Under the pieces are notes generated by a model that did not search any database, was not told where the DNA came from, and was given only the letters and a program-made list of their open reading frames with translations. Position numbers and translations under genes: made by a program. Of a stretch of DNA of 20,550 nucleotides, positions 6,020 through 20,239 are shown piece by piece; position 1 is the first letter of the stretch, and the number at the start of each line of letters is the position of its first letter. Origin of the DNA: a virus; the IMG/VR virus record IMGVR_UViG_3300049847_000487, positions 1 through 20,550 of that record; one strand, given 5' to 3'.

Positions 6020-8617
6020 GTGAATATCTTTGAACTCTCTACTGCATTTGATAAAGCCCTCTTGTTAAGAGATAAGGGGGCTTTGCACCGTTTGAGAGAT
6101 ATTGAGGATAACCTCTCTGAGGCACTCTATTTAGCCTATAAGGACGCACGCAAGGAGTACAAAGACGCGCAGGGGACTAGCAGGGAGGCGTCTGCGGCGG
6201 CAAAGAGGCGCAGAGCCTCCATGCTATATGAATCCATAGGCGGCATAGTGGAGGCGCACGCGGCGCAGGCGGTGGCAGAGGTGGGTAGTCATGTTATGAC
6301 CTACATAGAGACTGCCGCACAGCAATCGCACGAGATGCTACAAGAGCAGATGCAAGACGCCGTTTTTAACCATGCGCCCATAGAGGCAATACGGAAGGTG
6401 GCGGGGTTCTATTCGGGAGAGAACTCCCCTCTTGAGAAGATATTCAAGGGGTACAGTGAGGAGGATAAGGCACTCTATGAAAAAACCATATTAGAGGGTC
6501 TGGCGCAGGGGTACTCTCCGTCTAAGATGGCAGGTATCCTCTCTAAGGCGGTAGAGATAAGCCGTGCGCGTGCGGAAACCATAATGCGTACAGAGAGCCT
6601 CCGGGCGTATAGGGAGGTGTCGAGAGAGACGTATGAGGCGAATAGTGACGTAGTGGAGGCGTGGGCATGGAACGCACATTTACCCGATAGGCGCACCTGT
6701 GCGGTATGCACCGCACTACACGGCACGATTTGGAAGGTAAGCGTGCCAATGGGCACTCACCCGAATTGCCGTTGCGCGATGGTTCCCATAGTGCGCTTCA
6801 ATGACAAGTGGCTTAATGGTCAATGGCAAGGGGAGGCGTGGTTTAAGAAGCAGGACGAGGATTACCAAAAGGCGGTATTGGGCAAGGCAAAATTTGAGGC
6901 GTACACGGATAAGAAGATAACCCTGCGTGACCTCATAGGATACCGTGAAAGTGAGACTTGGGGTGCGGTGCGTTGGGAGCGTAGCCTAAAAGACGCACTC
7001 ACAGAACCACGTGCTAAAGGCGCATACCCTCCCGTATTCCGTTCCGCACCGTCTGCAAACCCCACACCCGCAAAGGCAAAGCAGGCAAAACCCTCCGTAA
7101 CGCCTCCACAACCCACGCAGAGCCTCTTCCCCTCCGATCTGAGTGCATTTACCCATGTAAAGGACTTAGGAGGGAGTACAGGTGCTACGCTCGTTAAAGA
7201 CGCAGACGGGGTACTTTATGTTATGAAGCGTGGTAGTAACCCCGAACACCTTTTGGCAGAGATGGAAGCAGATACCTTCTACCGTGCGGCGGGGGTGAAT
7301 GTACCAGAATTTCAGAAGTACATAGACGCAGACGGCAAACCCGTCAAAATCGCTAAATTCGTAGAGGGCAAGACCCTTGCAGAGGTGCGTGCAAGTGGGG
7401 GAGACGTAGCAGGCTTTGTCAAAAAAGCGCAGGCGCACTTTTACACCGATGCCCTTATGGGGAATTGGGACGTTATAGGCTTGAGTGCGGATAATATCCT
7501 CATAGATAACGCAGGCGCGGTATGGCGTATAGATAACGGGGGCGCACTAGGCTACAGGGCGCAGGGTAGCCTAAAGGGTTCGGCATTTACGGAGAATCCC
7601 TTAGAACTCATTACTATGAGGAAAGACAAAACGCACGCGGCGCAGGCGGTGGGGGTGTTTGGGGACGTAGATATATTCCAACTTGCCGACCAGCATACCC
7701 TATATGGTAAAACCTTAGAGGCAAACCTTAACCTTATCTCTGATGCAGGGGTAAGGGAGACTATGAGGAAACGCCTTGAGAGTGCGCGTACAGTTTTTGA
7801 GACTGTGGGGGATATGAGAGCAGACCAGTGGAAGAGTGGGTACACCGATCTGATAGCAGAGTATATGCTACGGTGGCGGCAGGAGGGTGTGGTAGAGGAG
7901 ATGCCTGCCTCCCTACACGGCGCACTAGGTGCGGTTACCTTCAAAGACTCGGCGGGTAAGGAGTTCGATAGCCTGCGGGGTTCTAATGGCATTATGAGGC
8001 ACGCCGAGCGCGTGGTAACCAACACGGGCGGGAACTACCAGTATTTCAGTGAATGGAGTACACGGCAAGCGGGTAGTTCGTGGAGTGAACCTCCTCTCAT
8101 GTTAAAATACCGATCCGCAACAGCATGGAGAAATACACCCGTAAAGGATTACTTTTGGCGTTTGCCAGTAGCAGAGGGTGAAAAGGCTTTCAAAGACAAT
8201 GTACCAGACGCAGGTATATATGACCGCACTTTTGCGGCGATGCACGCCTTTAATATAGAGTTCTTGCGGAAAACTACCTTCCTGAATAACGACACCGTAA
8301 AGCGCACTTTGAAACTAGGGCGCACGGAAGATATCGCAACCCTACGAGATAAATACAAAGTAGATATAGGACAAAAAGGGGTACAATTTAAGAGAGGAGC
8401 TTGGGAAAGTACCTCTATATCACGCCCTGTATACCCTTACGGGAACACCCTCACCGTATACACGGAAGTACCGCACCATAGGGTATTGAGTAATTATTTC
8501 TTTTCAAAAGGGGCAAATAGTCATGATATGTTCTACGGGGATGGGGAGAATGAGTTCGTAGTAATGCTAGAAGGGTTAGGCGCAGATGTTAAAGCCTATG
8601 GAGGGCAGATTGATTAA
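6020..8617 (+). CDS. MuF head protein with kinase-like and ADP-ribosyltransferase-like domains
   Basis: An 865-residue multidomain protein, far longer than a plain MuF protein (roughly 250-400). Residues about 150-258 form the MuF domain: RAETIMRTE and WNAHLPDRRTCAVC (Cys 227/230), then HPNCRC (Cys 250/252); such proteins sit inside or at the portal of the head. A Pro/Ala/Lys-rich linker (about 336-370) leads to a kinase-like domain (about 378-560): LGGSTGATLV glycine loop (382-391), Lys 403, GNWD (481-484), SADNILID (489-496) and IDNGGAL (504-510). These match the catalytic Asp, metal Asn and DFG-like Asp of PI3K/HipA-type kinases. The C-terminal part (about 640-865) has LGRTE (Arg 768), ESTSIS (STS 797-799) and GENEF (Glu 843/845), the R-STS-ExE triad of ADP-ribosyltransferases. 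It starts with GTG 3 bp after the portal. MuF is secure; the two enzymatic domains are motif-based inference. Confidence 0.88.
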   Translation: MNIFELSTAFDKALLLRDKGALHRLRDIEDNLSEALYLAYKDARKEYKDAQGTSREASAAAKRRRASMLYESIGGIVEAHAAQAVAEVGSHVMTYIETAAQQSHEMLQEQMQDAVFNHAPIEAIRKVAGFYSGENSPLEKIFKGYSEEDKALYEKTILEGLAQGYSPSKMAGILSKAVEISRARAETIMRTESLRAYREVSRETYEANSDVVEAWAWNAHLPDRRTCAVCTALHGTIWKVSVPMGTHPNCRCAMVPIVRFNDKWLNGQWQGEAWFKKQDEDYQKAVLGKAKFEAYTDKKITLRDLIGYRESETWGAVRWERSLKDALTEPRAKGAYPPVFRSAPSANPTPAKAKQAKPSVTPPQPTQSLFPSDLSAFTHVKDLGGSTGATLVKDADGVLYVMKRGSNPEHLLAEMEADTFYRAAGVNVPEFQKYIDADGKPVKIAKFVEGKTLAEVRASGGDVAGFVKKAQAHFYTDALMGNWDVIGLSADNILIDNAGAVWRIDNGGALGYRAQGSLKGSAFTENPLELITMRKDKTHAAQAVGVFGDVDIFQLADQHTLYGKTLEANLNLISDAGVRETMRKRLESARTVFETVGDMRADQWKSGYTDLIAEYMLRWRQEGVVEEMPASLHGALGAVTFKDSAGKEFDSLRGSNGIMRHAERVVTNTGGNYQYFSEWSTRQAGSSWSEPPLMLKYRSATAWRNTPVKDYFWRLPVAEGEKAFKDNVPDAGIYDRTFAAMHAFNIEFLRKTTFLNNDTVKRTLKLGRTEDIATLRDKYKVDIGQKGVQFKRGAWESTSISRPVYPYGNTLTVYTEVPHHRVLSNYFFSKGANSHDMFYGDGENEFVVMLEGLGADVKAYGGQID

Positions 8618-8936
8618 AGTATTTCGGTATGAGGATTGCGGGGTGGTGGCAATAGTAGAGGCATTCGGTAAAAGGGGTGTACTCTACATTTCTGATCAGA
8701 GACGGGAGACCGCAGAGGCGGGGTACTGCATGGTACTAGGTACGGTGTGGAAGGAACACGGCACGGAAACCTTCCTCCCTAAAGAGGGGAATACTCCCAT
8801 AGAGGGGTACAGTAGGGAGCCTGCCTTAGTGGAAGCGGTACGAGAGATGTTCCGCCAATCAGACAGCGGAGCAACCCTGCCATACTTGACAAGGGAGGAG
8901 GTGCAAAAACTATGCACGCAAGAATCGCCCAGTTAG
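8610..8936 (+). CDS. hypothetical protein downstream of MuF
   Basis: I do not recognise this protein of about 108 residues. It is a beta-rich N-terminal half (VFRYEDCGVVAIVEAFG, GVLYIS, YCMVLGTVW) followed by a helical half with EPALVEAVREMF. I prefer the TTG at 8610 because GGAGG (8600-8604) sits five bases before it, and it overlaps the MuF stop by only 8 bp; in-frame ATGs at 8586 and 8598 lack a well-placed ribosome site but would add 8 or 4 residues. The gene directly follows the toxin-like MuF protein, so an immunity, chaperone or inhibitor role is possible, but nothing in the sequence proves it. It overlaps the next gene by 25 bp. Confidence 0.6.
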   Translation: MIKVFRYEDCGVVAIVEAFGKRGVLYISDQRRETAEAGYCMVLGTVWKEHGTETFLPKEGNTPIEGYSREPALVEAVREMFRQSDSGATLPYLTREEVQKLCTQESPS

Positions 8937-9421
8937 CATTAGCAGAGGCGTATAAGGATTACCAGACTAGAAAGAAGTTCACCCCTAAAGGGCTTGGAGA
9001 GGAAACAGGGGTGCGGAGTACGGCGTATTGGTTAGGGAAACTAGAGGCGGCGGCAAAAAAACTTGACGCACTTAATCCCTATCCTCTCAAAGGCACACCT
9101 ACCACATTGGCAGAGTGGGCAAAAGTCTGCGATCTCTGGATACCCGTACAGGAGGTGCAGGCACACCCTGAAATCCTACAAGAAAAGCGTACACTCTGCG
9201 TATACCCGCACCATAGGCGGCATGGGTCTATGTGCGGTATAGATGGGGTGTTGGATGCAGGGTGGGAGGAGGAAACCGCAGAGGGTGGAACTCTTACCGT
9301 TATAAAAATACTAGGGGTAAGAGAAAATAGCGGTATGGTGGGTTTGCACAATCTCTTCTGGAAAGACTTCTACGCACAAAATGGAAATGCCCGCGGGGGA
9401 TTTATTCACCTGCGGTATTAG
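8912..9421 (+). CDS. hypothetical protein, last gene of the packaging/head operon
   Basis: An unrecognised 169-residue protein. The N-terminal half is helical and lysine/alanine-rich (IAQLALAEAYKDY, LGKLEAAAKKLDAL); the C-terminal half is beta-rich and includes a His/Cys cluster, CVYPHHRRHGSMCG (Cys 96, His 100, 101 and 104, Cys 108), which could bind a metal. The start follows a strong GGGAGGAGG, and the frame overlaps the previous gene by 25 bp. An intrinsic terminator lies about 40 bp past the stop, so this is the last gene of the unit that begins before the window. A role with the adjacent MuF effector is conceivable but unsupported. Confidence 0.6.
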   Translation: MHARIAQLALAEAYKDYQTRKKFTPKGLGEETGVRSTAYWLGKLEAAAKKLDALNPYPLKGTPTTLAEWAKVCDLWIPVQEVQAHPEILQEKRTLCVYPHHRRHGSMCGIDGVLDAGWEEETAEGGTLTVIKILGVRENSGMVGLHNLFWKDFYAQNGNARGGFIHLRY

Positions 9422-9463: not shown

Positions 9464-9497
9464 AGGGAGGGTGCTTCGTCACACCCTCCCTTTTTTT
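9464..9497 (+). terminator. intrinsic terminator after the packaging operon
   Basis: A perfect 10-bp GC-rich stem (AGGGAGGGTG at 9464-9473 with CACCCTCCCT at 9482-9491) and an 8-base loop run into seven T residues. A weaker imperfect hairpin (CTATGG/CCATAG, 9428-9451) lies just before it. There is no T-run on the minus-strand side, so I expect it to act mainly on plus-strand transcripts, stopping them before the converging minus-strand genes. Confidence 0.88.
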
Positions 9498-9505
9498 CGT
9501 CTCTA

Positions 9506-9856
9506 CTATATCAAATCCTCTTTGCGTGCGGCGTTTGCCTGCGCCTCACTGCATAGGATAATATACGGTGTGAGGCGTATACCGTCTGCGCTAATGGGGC
9601 ATACAGGTACGAGCCTCTTCCCTGCAAGACGATTTAATACTCCTCCCAATGCCTCATGCTCTAAATCTGAGAGGTTCTCTATGGCAATCAGAATGTCAAG
9701 AGCCTCCTCTACGGTGCGGCGCAAAGGGTGACCCTCTTCTTTCATGGTACGCAGGTAGTCTGCATGGTAGGGAGAGAGGGTTATATTCATCTGCCGAACG
9801 TGGGTTTCGGGTGGGGTGGGTTTTCTCCCTGACCCTATGCGTTTACCTCCGTGCAT
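9506..9856 (-). CDS. small RHH-like regulator or hypothetical protein
   Basis: A 116-residue protein beginning HGGKRIGSGRKPTPPE, a basic GxGRKP leader typical of small phage and plasmid ribbon-helix-helix-like proteins. It is followed by a short strand (RQMNITLSP, 21-29) and two helices (HADYLRTMKEEG and LRRTVEEALDILIAIENL). This strand-helix-helix order fits an RHH DNA-binding fold, so it may regulate its own island; the C-terminal half (VPVCPISADGIRL and onward) is unrecognised. I chose the ATG at 9856 because GGGAAG precedes it with good spacing and it overlaps the upstream membrane-protein gene by 14 bp; a start at 9907 would overlap by 65 bp. It is the last gene of the minus-strand unit. 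Confidence 0.6.
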   Translation of the reverse strand: MHGGKRIGSGRKPTPPETHVRQMNITLSPYHADYLRTMKEEGHPLRRTVEEALDILIAIENLSDLEHEALGGVLNRLAGKRLVPVCPISADGIRLTPYIILCSEAQANAARKEDLI

Positions 9857-10004
9857 TTTGGGCTTCCCTCTCTCTGTTTCCCTGCCGTGTACCTTCGTAG
9901 GTATCATATTGGCGATCTATTCCCTCTGCCAGAAAGTACGCCATAATCCCTACTACAAAGAGTAGTATGAGTATATCGCGCACTATGAGTAGTAGTTTTT
10001 TCAC
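9843..10004 (-). CDS. 53-aa single-pass membrane protein
   Basis: A short reading frame with a GTG start at 10004 and a TAA at 9843-9845. The product opens with two lysines, has one hydrophobic span (about residues 3-25: LLLIVRDILILLFVVGIMAYFLA, interrupted by one Arg-Asp), then a very hydrophilic tail rich in Arg, Gln and Glu. This predicts an inner-membrane anchor with a cytoplasmic or periplasmic tail. AGAGG lies six bases before the GTG, and the leader upstream is a near copy of the leader of the preceding minus-strand gene. Small membrane proteins in lysogenically expressed phage cassettes often act in superinfection exclusion; that role is inference here. The next gene overlaps its end by 14 bp. 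Confidence 0.62.
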   Translation of the reverse strand: MKKLLLIVRDILILLFVVGIMAYFLAEGIDRQYDTYEGTRQGNREREAQNARR

Positions 10005-10015
10005 AGTATGCCTCT

Positions 10016-10035
10016 TTTGTGATGGTGGGGGAGGG
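10016..10035 (-). repeat. duplicated leader element, copy 1
   Basis: A 20-base sequence (TTTGTGATGGTGGGGGAGGG on the plus strand) identical to 10541-10560. Each copy lies just before a ribosome site of a minus-strand gene and is flanked by an AGGG..CCCT box that differs between copies (TGCGCCCT here, CGCACCCT in copy 2). It may be a shared translational or RNA-level control element, or a duplication scar. Confidence 0.75.
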
Positions 10036-10042
10036 TGCGCCC

Positions 10043-10528
10043 TTATCTATCGTAGATGTTAAGGACGTGCCCCTCTAGGGAGATATAGCGATTACCCTTA
10101 TAGGTTCCGTCTGCACTTTGCAGGTACTTCTCAAAAGTGAAGTCTATTTCCTCATAAGTAATAGAGTGAGGGAACTTTTTAAGGTGCAGGTTACTCCTCT
10201 CTTCCATGTAGGTACGCACAGGTGCGGGGGGAGCCTCCGGGCGGGTAACCATAACTAAGGCTTTCCCTTCGGGGTGGGGTGCATACTTAATCGGGAAATC
10301 CTCCGTAACGTCCAATTCTATGGTCTCTGCGTCTGTGGGGATGGTTAATCCTCCTGCTAGCGCAGAGGTGCAATACTCAAAGATAACCCGATTAGGGTTT
10401 TGACGGCAATCAAGGTACATACCTCGAAAATAAAACACCCTGTCAAGGTAGGTTATATACGCCGTGCCGTTTTTGCCTAATTTGGCATTGTGACCCTGTG
10501 CGATCTCTGCGCGTGTAAGTCGTAACAT
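10043..10528 (-). CDS. hypothetical protein of the minus-strand island
   Basis: An unrecognised protein of 161 residues from the ATG at 10528. It looks like a soluble beta-rich protein: GTAYITYLDRVFYFRGMYLDC, VIFEYCTS, TIELDVTEDFPI, ALVMVTRP, and a C-terminal RYISLEGHVLNIYDR. There is a proline-rich turn (APPAPV) in the centre and no signal peptide or membrane span. An AAAGGAG lies eight bases before the ATG at 10528 but only two bases before an alternative ATG at 10534, so the inner start is preferred. It is the second gene of a four-gene minus-strand unit. Confidence 0.62.
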   Translation of the reverse strand: MLRLTRAEIAQGHNAKLGKNGTAYITYLDRVFYFRGMYLDCRQNPNRVIFEYCTSALAGGLTIPTDAETIELDVTEDFPIKYAPHPEGKALVMVTRPEAPPAPVRTYMEERSNLHLKKFPHSITYEEIDFTFEKYLQSADGTYKGNRYISLEGHVLNIYDR

Positions 10529-10540
10529 TCTCATATCTCC

Positions 10541-10560
10541 TTTGTGATGGTGGGGGAGGG
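10541..10560 (-). repeat. duplicated leader element, copy 2
   Basis: Second exact copy of the 20-base element at 10016-10035, here directly upstream of the ribosome site of the gene ending at 10043. Together with the adjacent bases it forms an 8-bp perfect stem (GGGGAGGG at 10554-10561 region, loop CGCA/TGCG, CCCTCCCC up to about 10573), with no T-run after it on either strand. It is more likely a leader stem-loop than a terminator. Confidence 0.7.
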
Positions 10561-10591
10561 CGCACCCTCCCCTTGCGGTCTTGCGATACCT

Positions 10592-10870
10592 CTATGCTTT
10601 GCAGTATATCAGGTACAACTCGTATTGCATATCCTTAACCCGCAAGAGGTCAGCATAGATAGCCTTTAGTCCCTCTGGTGCGTCTTTGGCAGTGGGGTCA
10701 TGAGGAAGCAACAGCAAGTCTTTATTGGTATAACTGTCCATCTCTGCCTGTATGCAGGTTTCTACTTCCTCAAGTGCCTCTATCGCACCTTTAATAGCAC
10801 CTTTAATCACTGGCTCTGGTGACCCTGAAAGCATATCTTGCAGGATACGATTTTGATAATGTGGACTCAT
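10592..10870 (-). CDS. hypothetical helical protein, first gene of the minus-strand island
   Basis: A 92-residue, almost entirely helical acidic protein of unknown function, with no membrane span. It contains a short internal duplication (IKGAIKGAI, residues 22-30), reflected in the DNA as a 12-base tandem repeat, then EALEEVETCIQAEMDS and a C-terminal helix with LLRVKDMQYELYLIYCKA. The ATG at 10870 follows AAGGAGAAG. It is the promoter-proximal gene: a perfect-consensus promoter lies about 35-60 bp upstream. This makes it the most strongly expressed candidate of the island, possibly a regulator or small inhibitor, but no motif supports a specific role. Confidence 0.6.
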   Translation of the reverse strand: MSPHYQNRILQDMLSGSPEPVIKGAIKGAIEALEEVETCIQAEMDSYTNKDLLLLPHDPTAKDAPEGLKAIYADLLRVKDMQYELYLIYCKA

Positions 10871-10903
10871 GCCTAAACTTCTCCTTGTGGGTAACTTGAA
10901 TAC

Positions 10904-10932
10904 ATTATATCACTAATCAAGGGTAATGTCAA
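10904..10932 (-). promoter_or_regulatory. perfect sigma70-type promoter for the minus-strand island
   Basis: Read on the minus strand: TTGACA (10932-10927), a 17-base spacer, then TATAAT (10909-10904). Both hexamers and the spacer match the consensus exactly. It drives the four minus-strand genes away from the capsid genes. Confidence 0.85.
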
Positions 10933-10979
10933 TACTTGTGTGCGAAATAACGTCAAAATACACATAATTTTTAATTGTG

Positions 10980-11009
10980 TTGACAATAGAGGGAGAATTT
11001 CGGTAATAT
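10980..11009 (+). promoter_or_regulatory. sigma70-type promoter for the scaffold/capsid operon
   Basis: TTGACA at 10980-10985 and TAATAT at 11004-11009, separated by 18 bases, in an AT-rich gap. The -35 is perfect and the -10 matches four of six. It faces the scaffold gene, with an 11011-11076 leader. A partial palindrome ACACA(N11)TGTGT (about 10960-10980) sits between the two divergent promoters and abuts this -35, so it could be an operator. Confidence 0.65.
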
Positions 11010-11076
11010 GAGGTCGCCATAGTACCCGCGATGGGGAACGGCGCACACTCAATCCGAGATGGAGAAGGGTTACCCA

Positions 11077-11565
11077 ATGTCACAAGATGATGCAGGCGGC
11101 GGTGCAGGCGGTGGTGGGAATGAACACGATCCGCAGGTGGTTATCGCCAAACTAAACAAAGAGAACACGGCGCGGCGTCTTGAAAACGAGAAGCTCGCCA
11201 AAGAATCCCAAACTTATGCCTCTCAAATCGAGGAACTTACTAAGGCACATACCACACTAGAAACAGGATACACTACTACCCAAAAAGAGAACGCCCTGCT
11301 TCGCGCACTTCACAAAGAGCAGGTGGCGCACGTAGATGCGGTACTAAAACTCGCAGACTACAGTAAGGTACAGATTGACGGGGGTAAAGTAGTGGAGAAA
11401 AGTATCAGTGAGGTAATCGCAGAATTAAAGGGCGCATACCCTGTTTTGTTCTCCACACCTGCAAGCGGCGCGGCGAAGGTACTAGGCGCAGATGCAGGGT
11501 CACAGGGTGGGGGGAAACCTCCCGTAGACATGAACGCCCTAATTCGCAAGCGTGCAGGTAGGTAG
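11077..11565 (+). CDS. capsid scaffolding protein
   Basis: A 162-residue protein whose composition and position fit a phage scaffold, which guides assembly of the capsid shell and then leaves. Residues 1-18 are Gly/Asp/Asn-rich. A long charged coiled coil follows (about 20-85, KLNKENTARRLENEKLAKES onward). Then comes the compact segment DGGKVVEKSISEVIAELKGAYPVLF (101-125), which is typical of GP20-like scaffolds, and a flexible Gly/Ala tail ending in basic residues (IRKRAGR) that would contact the capsid protein. The ATG at 11077 has AAGGG seven bases upstream; an ATG at 11059 lacks a ribosome site. It is immediately upstream of the major capsid gene. Confidence 0.82.
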   Translation: MSQDDAGGGAGGGGNEHDPQVVIAKLNKENTARRLENEKLAKESQTYASQIEELTKAHTTLETGYTTTQKENALLRALHKEQVAHVDAVLKLADYSKVQIDGGKVVEKSISEVIAELKGAYPVLFSTPASGAAKVLGADAGSQGGGKPPVDMNALIRKRAGR

Positions 11566-11596
11566 AGACGTTTTGAGGGCACTAGGAGAAACGTAG

Positions 11597-12550
11597 ATGC
11601 CCTACAATAGCATTATAGATCGTGATGACGCCTCCCCTCTCATACCTGAAGAGGCGGCAACAGCGATCCTTACCGATGTCACTCGCAATAGCCTTGCCCT
11701 CAATATGTTCCGCCAAACCCCTATGAGTAGGGGTCAGCAAAGAATCCCCGTAACCTCTGCCCTTGCTACAGCGTATTTCGTCAATGGCGATACAGGACTG
11801 AAGCAGACTACCTCTATGGCGTGGGATAACCTCTATCTTAACGCCGAAGAAGTGGCGGCAATCGTGCCGATCCCTGAAGCAGTGCTAGAAGATAGCGCGT
11901 TCGATATTTGGGGCGAATACCGCAAAGACATTGCGGAAGCAGTGGGTTCCCTCCTTGACGCGGCGATTTTCTTCGGCACGAATAAGCCCTCCTCATGGAG
12001 TGATGACCTTGTAACGGGGTGTACCAATGCGGGCAACTATATTACCCGTGCGGCACAATCCTCTACTAACGACGTAGCCTTAGAAATCTCTAACGCTATG
12101 GCACTCGTAGAGGCAGACGGGTACACCTGTAACGGTCACGCGGCGCGGGTGAATATGCGCGGCGAGCTTCGTGGTCTGCGTGATCAAAACCGCCAACTCC
12201 TCTACCTGAATAGCCTTAACGATGGTAGTACCTCTCCCTCCCTCTACGGTCTCCCCATAAACTACATGGTAAACGGCGGGTGGGTGACCTCTGGTAGCAA
12301 CCTCCCACACATGATCAGCGGGGACTTTCAGCAGGGCATAATCGGCGTGCGGAAGGATTTGGAGTGGAAGGTTCTAACGGAGGCGGTGATCACCGACACA
12401 GAGGGGAATATCCTCTATAACCTCGCACAGCAAGACATGGTGGCACTTCGTGTACGTGCGCGTTTCGCGTGGGCAATCGCAAACCCCGTGAATCGCCTTA
12501 ACTCCAACGATAGTACGCGGTTCCCCTTTGCCCTCTTGCGTGCGGCGTAG
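11597..12550 (+). CDS. major capsid protein, HK97 fold
   Basis: The 317-residue shell subunit. It shows the HK97-family arrangement: an N-terminal arm (IPEEAATAILTDVTRNSLALNMFRQTPMSRGQQRIPV), the E-loop with ATAYFVNGDTGLKQTTSMAWDNLYLNAEEVAAIVPIPEAVLEDS (about 58-101), the spine-helix segment DIWGEYRKDIAEAVGSLLDAAIFFGT, the A-domain with GLPINYMVNGG and SGDFQQGIIGVRKDLEWKVL, and a final strand RVRARFAWAIANP. There is no obvious N-terminal delta domain, consistent with a separate scaffold gene. An AGGAG lies upstream of the ATG. A stem-loop follows the stop, which may trim downstream expression relative to capsid. Confidence 0.94.
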   Translation: MPYNSIIDRDDASPLIPEEAATAILTDVTRNSLALNMFRQTPMSRGQQRIPVTSALATAYFVNGDTGLKQTTSMAWDNLYLNAEEVAAIVPIPEAVLEDSAFDIWGEYRKDIAEAVGSLLDAAIFFGTNKPSSWSDDLVTGCTNAGNYITRAAQSSTNDVALEISNAMALVEADGYTCNGHAARVNMRGELRGLRDQNRQLLYLNSLNDGSTSPSLYGLPINYMVNGGWVTSGSNLPHMISGDFQQGIIGVRKDLEWKVLTEAVITDTEGNILYNLAQQDMVALRVRARFAWAIANPVNRLNSNDSTRFPFALLRAA

Positions 12551-19777: not shown

Positions 19778-19812
19778 TCCCTTCCCTGCTATGCGGGGAG
19801 GGGACTTTTTTT
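19778..19812 (+). terminator. intrinsic terminator between tail tube and tail chaperones
   Basis: A 12-bp stem with two G-U wobbles (TCCCTTCCCTGC at 19778-19789, GCGGGGAGGGGA at 19793-19804), a three-base TAT loop and a seven-T run at 19806-19812. The AGGAGG ribosome site of the chaperone gene begins right after the T-run. Partial readthrough would set a high tube to low chaperone and tape measure ratio. Confidence 0.85.
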
Positions 19813-19825
19813 AGGAGGCAAGCAG

Positions 19826-20239
19826 ATGCAGAAGAAATTAGAAGTCATAGGGGAAGAGGTGGCAGAGAGTATGCCCCTTGAGGCAGATGTAAACACCGCA
19901 GAGGCAGAGGAGTTTGATTTTGCCGATTATATGGAAGAAACGGTACGCATACCCTGCTATGTGGAAGGGAAGGTATTCCATGTATTCCACAGAGTACACT
20001 CTCGCACGCTCGCCTATCAGATGAGGCTTGAGACACTAAACGCCGACCTTGAGGCAAAGCGTATTTCGCACGGAGATTTTGTCAAAGAGGTATACCTCCC
20101 TCTTATTAGTGGGTGGGATATGAAAAAGAAGGGGGAGCCTATTCCCTTCTCGCTAGAGGCACTATTAGGGATGCCTGATGCAGTATTTCAGGCGATTGCC
20201 TCTGCCTTGCTAACGGCGGTAAACGTCCCAAAGTCGTAA
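19826..20239 (+). CDS. tail assembly chaperone, short (gpG-like) form
   Basis: A 137-residue acidic N-terminal and helical protein (EEFDFADYMEETVRIPCYVEGKVFHVFHRVHSRTLAYQMRLETLNADLEAKRISHGDFVKEVYLPLISGWD) with PFSLEALLGMPDAVFQAIASALL near the end. This is the usual plan of the tail assembly chaperone that coats the tape measure protein during tail assembly. It begins at an ATG behind AGGAGG and lies between the tail tube and tape measure genes, as in lambda-like phages. A slippery CCCAAAG lies four codons before the stop (sense codons GTC CCA AAG TCG TAA), and the -1 frame stays open for 76 codons, giving the gpG-T equivalent. Confidence 0.85.
   Translation: MQKKLEVIGEEVAESMPLEADVNTAEAEEFDFADYMEETVRIPCYVEGKVFHVFHRVHSRTLAYQMRLETLNADLEAKRISHGDFVKEVYLPLISGWDMKKKGEPIPFSLEALLGMPDAVFQAIASALLTAVNVPKS
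20227..20233 (+). other. -1 ribosomal frameshift site CCCAAAG
   Basis: The heptamer is in the correct phase (C CCA AAG) two codons before the short form's TAA. The -1 frame continues without a stop from 20233 to the TAA at 20461-20463. Downstream, GAGTACC (20254-20260)/GGTACTC (20297-20303) and inside it GGGAAG (20272-20277)/CTTCCC (20287-20292) can form a nested hairpin, about 20 bases from the slip site, farther than usual. Confidence 0.8.

Follow-up and report, generated by a model that had tools for sequence, protein, structure and literature searches.

Does a four-gene minus-strand block, set within an otherwise co-oriented phage head gene cluster, belong to virion assembly, or is it an inserted accessory operon with expression of its own? 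The block lies in the virus record IMGVR_UViG_3300049847_000487, a 20.5-kb fragment which was analyzed over its whole length of 20,550 bases (the window). Four minus-strand ORFs (9506-10870), referred to here as the island, separate the gene for a MuF-like protein and two small genes from the scaffold and capsid genes, and all assigned genes outside the island are on the plus strand. The plus-strand order begins with two unassigned genes, followed by genes for a ParB-domain protein, an HNH-type protein, a putative small terminase, and the large terminase; the small terminase was assigned by position and the large terminase by tblastn matches that relatives show at the corresponding position. 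The portal, the MuF-like protein, two small genes, the scaffold, and the major capsid protein follow, and beyond the capsid are several small genes, presumably with head completion and tail roles, and then a long tail-like ORF. No lysogeny gene was recognised among the proteins searched, a set that took in few late genes and not the large tail ORF.

Features of the island and its borders

6020..9421, plus strand: gene for a MuF-like head morphogenesis protein (865 aa), then two small genes, on the upstream side of the island (Phage_Mu_F, 8.6e-14; phrog_241, 1.2e-22)
9464..9497, plus strand: intrinsic-terminator-like hairpin (9464-9491, 10-bp stem) and T-run, ending the plus-strand run ahead of the island
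9506..9907, minus strand: mD, 133 aa, basic (pI 9.0), last gene of the block, putative DNA-binding protein
9843..10004, minus strand: mC, 53 aa, GTG start, one N-terminal hydrophobic (transmembrane-like) helix and a charged tail
10012..10043, minus strand: 32-bp intergenic repeat copy 1, with ribosome-binding site, ahead of mC, 91% identical to copy 2
10043..10534, minus strand: mB, 163 aa, orphan
10537..10568, minus strand: 32-bp intergenic repeat copy 2, with ribosome-binding site, ahead of mB, overlapping an 8-bp G+C hairpin
10592..10870, minus strand: mA, 92 aa, acidic (pI 4.7), first gene of the block, orphan
10904..10932, minus strand: sigma-70 promoter of the island, perfect TTGACA-N17-TATAAT, exact and unique in the window (0.02 expected by chance)
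10933..10979, no strand: A+T-rich gap of 47 bp between the divergent -35 boxes, with imperfect repeats only, none significant
10980..11009, plus strand: promoter TTGACA-N18-TAATAT ahead of scaffold-capsid, 10 of 12 consensus match
11059..12550, plus strand: scaffold and major capsid genes, downstream of the island (Phage_scaffold, 1.2e-11; Phage_capsid, 7.9e-27)

Coding signal and gene layout

Four genes of opposite strand within the structural cluster (9506-10932) had been reported by the initial annotation, and both their coordinates and their coding character were confirmed. Codon-usage scores, obtained with a scoring trained on the large plus-strand genes of the window, were positive for all four island ORFs (0.06-0.31 bits/codon), with three of them below most structural genes. 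Antisense and shadow ORFs scored between -0.27 and 0.00 bits/codon in 12 of 13 cases, the exception being a 41-codon ORF at 0.12. Ribosome sites of the AAGGAG/AGAGG type precede the first three island genes, and AGAGGGA is found at a longer distance ahead of mD, whose gene overlaps that of mC by 65 nt. The G+C content of the island, a property in which morons can depart from their neighbors, is 48.7% versus 52.0%, a slight difference. Upstream of the island, the MuF-like protein (6020-8617, 865 aa) carries a C-terminal stretch of more than 500 residues beyond the MuF domain without a Pfam match; judged by eye, one part of it is kinase-like and its end may be ADP-ribosyltransferase-like.

The 32-bp repeat (AGGGYGCRCCCTCCCCCACCATCACAAARGAG) has a core 17-mer that was found twice in the window against 0.08 expected; this core matches just four viral contigs, which is close to chance for such a collection as far as the estimated chance figure goes. 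In cluster K mycobacteriophages, start-associated sequences are short repeats that contain a ribosome-binding site and lie immediately ahead of start codons; inverted repeats sometimes accompany them (PMC3203893). The island repeat is similarly short and holds a ribosome-binding site directly upstream of starts, but it has just two copies, a different sequence, and a different phage group as its setting. It may have come with the assembly of the cassette, or it may serve translation. The G+C-rich half of the repeat resembles an arm of the terminator at 9464-9491. No structured RNA was matched in Rfam.

Transcription signals at the island borders

Plus-strand transcription was proposed in the initial annotation to stop just ahead of the island, the island to be read from a perfect TTGACA-N17-TATAAT promoter, and a second plus-strand promoter to lie behind it. 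All three signals are present in the window. The hairpin and T-run at the first border form one of the two strongest plus-strand terminators in the window, and the 85 nt around them fold far better than shuffled sequences (z = -4.6). The other strong plus-strand terminator (19778-19811, 12-bp stem and T-run) follows the long tail-like ORF, and a new gene begins at 19826. On the minus strand no T-run follows the 9464-9491 hairpin, and the island is thus without an obvious terminator of its own. As predicted from sequence, the hairpin would insulate the block, and no end to the transcript of the block itself is visible there. A flanking terminator is usual for morons, but not obligatory.

Promoter calls assumed that the host uses the sigma-70 consensus. 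In a scan of both strands with weights that are approximations, the island promoter ranked first and the plus-strand site at 10980-11009 second among all placements. A consensus scan gave the same ranking, with the island promoter (10932-10904, minus) matching 12 of 12 positions, the plus-strand site 10, and every other placement 9. Since the two best sites in 20 kb are placed back to back at the boundary where the direction of transcription changes, a chance origin of the pair is unlikely. No significant operator was found in the promoter region, where inverted repeats are no better than background. Across the -10 box of the island promoter runs one of these, the imperfect CTTGATTA-N11-TATTCAAG, which does not stand above others in the region.

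Searches with the island proteins

None of the four proteins was recognised in the initial annotation, and the library searches bear this out: Pfam and PADLOC gave no relatives, and the matches from PHROGs and NCBIfam were all weak and below threshold. Beyond the family libraries, mA, mB, and mD gave nothing beyond chance in viral contigs, species genomes, phages, plasmids, solved structures, or the records of relatives (30 whole records), the collections searched differing between the proteins; mC was searched in the family libraries and related loci only. A match to virion components had been named in the initial annotation as evidence that would count against its reading; profile searches of Pfam and PHROGs produced no virion-family match for any island protein. 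No member of a known Acr or Aca family was found among them in Pfam, PHROGs, PADLOC, or NCBIfam.

The hydrophobic helix of mC reaches a Kyte-Doolittle maximum of 2.7. In mD, a weak PHROGs match (phrog_8312, E = 0.0095) accompanies a basic GGKRIGSGRKP segment, followed by a segment which resembles a ribbon-helix-helix (RHH) by eye. Small phage proteins of diverse kinds, RHH-like and terminase-like ones among them, widely begin with a GGKRxGxGRKP segment, and the segment therefore suggests DNA binding rather than membership in a family. Assignment of mD as an RHH protein was not confirmed by Pfam, which gave no match, or by a profile of our own built from RHH-like GGKRxGxGRKP proteins, which also failed to match it. 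As the RHH likeness failed both profile tests, DNA binding by mD is a proposal only. The AlphaFold model of mD is of low confidence (pLDDT 49), with helices at 46-57 and 63-77, and the single-sequence prediction for mB is uninformative (pLDDT 34); these models were too poor for a fold search.

Comparison with related loci

Relatives of the window capsid are found in very many viral contigs and prophages at 41-56% identity, and the capsids of cultured phages (Arthrobacter, Microbacterium, Mycobacterium, and Acutalibacter) are less than 45% identical to it. Genes were called in 163 related loci by a simple codon-usage caller, which is imperfect and, applied to the window, left out or displaced a few of its genes. 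Loci with a portal or MuF match plus a capsid match (capsid 41-56% identical), in which the portal/MuF-to-capsid interval could be measured, numbered 53. The initial annotation had called for a comparison of gene order across 9498-10940 and had held that universal conservation with the head genes would speak against an insertion. The block was absent from all 53 relatives, the pattern of a moron, which is present in one phage but absent between the same genes of its relatives. Any predicted minus-strand gene in this interval was seen in only two of them (two genes in L044 and one, doubtful, in L086). The interval runs from about 0.6 to 8.5 kb, the long ones filled mostly by plus-strand small genes; its length and small-gene content mark it as a variable region. 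L044 and L045, viral contigs that are related to each other and have similar portal-to-capsid regions (~5-9 kb), differ in exchanged small genes, and the two minus-strand genes of L044 are missing from L045. No close relative without the block was found (nearest capsid 56% identical), so a clean empty site is not available; searches for closer relatives with the large terminase gave three distant loci and those with the portal none.

Widening the set to 112 loci that extend at least 4 kb upstream of the capsid gave 16 loci with a predicted minus-strand gene of at least 60 aa. The convincing cases, located no more than about 4 kb before the capsid gene, are on prophage contigs labeled Gastranaerophilales or uncultured bacterium. 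They are three tandem paralogues with signal-peptide-like starts (L138:1269-3058), tandem paralogous membrane proteins of one family in two loci (three in L116:5821-7103 and four in L133:5292-6962), and a related secreted-looking protein in L134 and L105, all on the minus strand. Scans of related-locus proteins, six of these minus-strand ones among them, gave no Pfam match above cut-off and only unnamed PHROGs, and the minus-strand proteins showed no relationship to the four island proteins. These genes suggest that antisense genes, frequently ones that encode membrane or secreted proteins, have entered the region ahead of scaffold-capsid on repeated occasions; by its layout the island, with its 53-aa membrane-type mC, would be another such arrival. 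At the minus-strand starts L134:8657, L105:4356, and L138:3058, the predicted start codon is preceded by a TATAAT whose end lies exactly 6 nt ahead of it, an arrangement that would give a near-leaderless mRNA.

Discussion

Taken together, the data suggest that the block is likely an accessory (moron-type) operon that was inserted into the head cluster between its MuF and scaffold-capsid ends and is expressed independently. This proposal of the initial annotation is supported by the promoter pair, the terminator, the absence of the block from 53 relatives, and the lack of a virion match. The promoter of its own that is expected of a moron is seen in the island as an exact sigma-70 consensus, that is, in sequence only. 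Host RNA polymerase would start at about 10897, as inferred from the promoter, and would transcribe mA, mB, mC, and mD independently of the late genes. The plus-strand terminator would keep transcription of the upstream head genes out of the block and prevent head-on collision and antisense RNA, and the plus-strand promoter at 10980-11009 would restore the capsid expression that the terminator would cut off, so that the insertion would be tolerated and self-contained in transcription. By analogy, and with less certainty than the transcription steps, the products probably act on the host or on competing phages, where mC may act at the envelope as a small membrane protein and the basic mD may regulate the divergent promoters. 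Superinfection exclusion and anti-defence are common roles of moron cassettes. That the island may be an undescribed defence or control cassette is a guess.

The roles suggested for the products are drawn solely from precedent, namely Tab, STMMW_20121, and anti-CRISPR clusters. Tab, a moron of Pseudomonas phage JBD26, lies on the minus strand within the late operon as a small gene that has a promoter of its own (PMC10884400). The island shares this layout; Tab is a single gene between the small and large terminase and the island is four genes between MuF and scaffold. STMMW_20121 of prophage ST64B is antisense to lytic genes, has its own promoter, and is considered an accessory (moron) locus (PMC7067206). 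The island shares its own promoter, antisense placement, and moron-type character, but STMMW_20121 is a single gene with expression measured in the lysogen. In Pseudomonas Mu-like phages, anti-CRISPR genes sit in a plasticity region, RGP G, and this variable region, like the island, has short accessory genes in a cluster (PMC4378225). The island would be a moron of a kind already known, with proteins that are orphans.

A special case of the accessory operon, possible but unlikely, is an acr-aca-like counter-defence operon in which mA and mB inhibit host defence and mD acts as an autorepressor in the core promoter. Known Aca genes follow acr genes, Aca proteins bind inverted repeats in the core promoter, and the last gene of acr-aca operons often encodes a DNA-binding protein (PMC9410906). 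The small orphan first genes of the island, its strong promoter, its location in the head cluster, the putative DNA-binding protein at its end, and the inverted repeat over the -10 box are all consistent with such an operon. However, the island proteins have no PADLOC match and no Acr or Aca similarity, the basic mD matches no Aca/HTH family and its RHH nature was not confirmed, and the inverted repeat is no better than its neighbors.

We consider it improbable that the island is a regulatory switch of the phage itself, with mD and its partners controlling the divergent promoters and timing the island and the capsid operon differently. The closeness of the back-to-back -35 boxes and the basic, putative DNA-binding character of mD would suit a switch, but comparable relatives, all without the block, manage without one, and no significant operator accompanies the promoters. 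Little likelihood likewise attaches to a four-gene control cassette whose last product acts on the divergent promoters and decides between transcription of the cassette and of the capsid operon; such a cassette would rely on two orphan effectors and on a DNA-binding protein not described until now. That the four are structural or assembly genes belonging to this lineage and inverted by chance, for example for minor head or decoration proteins, is very unlikely, as the opposite strand, the sigma-70 promoter, the transmembrane-like helix of mC, and the lack of a virion-family match outweigh the adjoining scaffold and capsid genes and the accessory decoration-protein genes known from that genome part (PMC4378225).

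With the accessory (moron-type) operon as the preferred reading, the island is a well-delimited case, with one promoter and four small genes in about 1.4 kb, and its proteins have no match in any library searched. New proteins for superinfection exclusion and counter-defence come in large part from accessory cassettes whose expression is separate from that of the lytic genes. The minus-strand membrane and secreted protein genes upstream of the capsid in distant relatives point to an entry site that can be searched across this capsid family.
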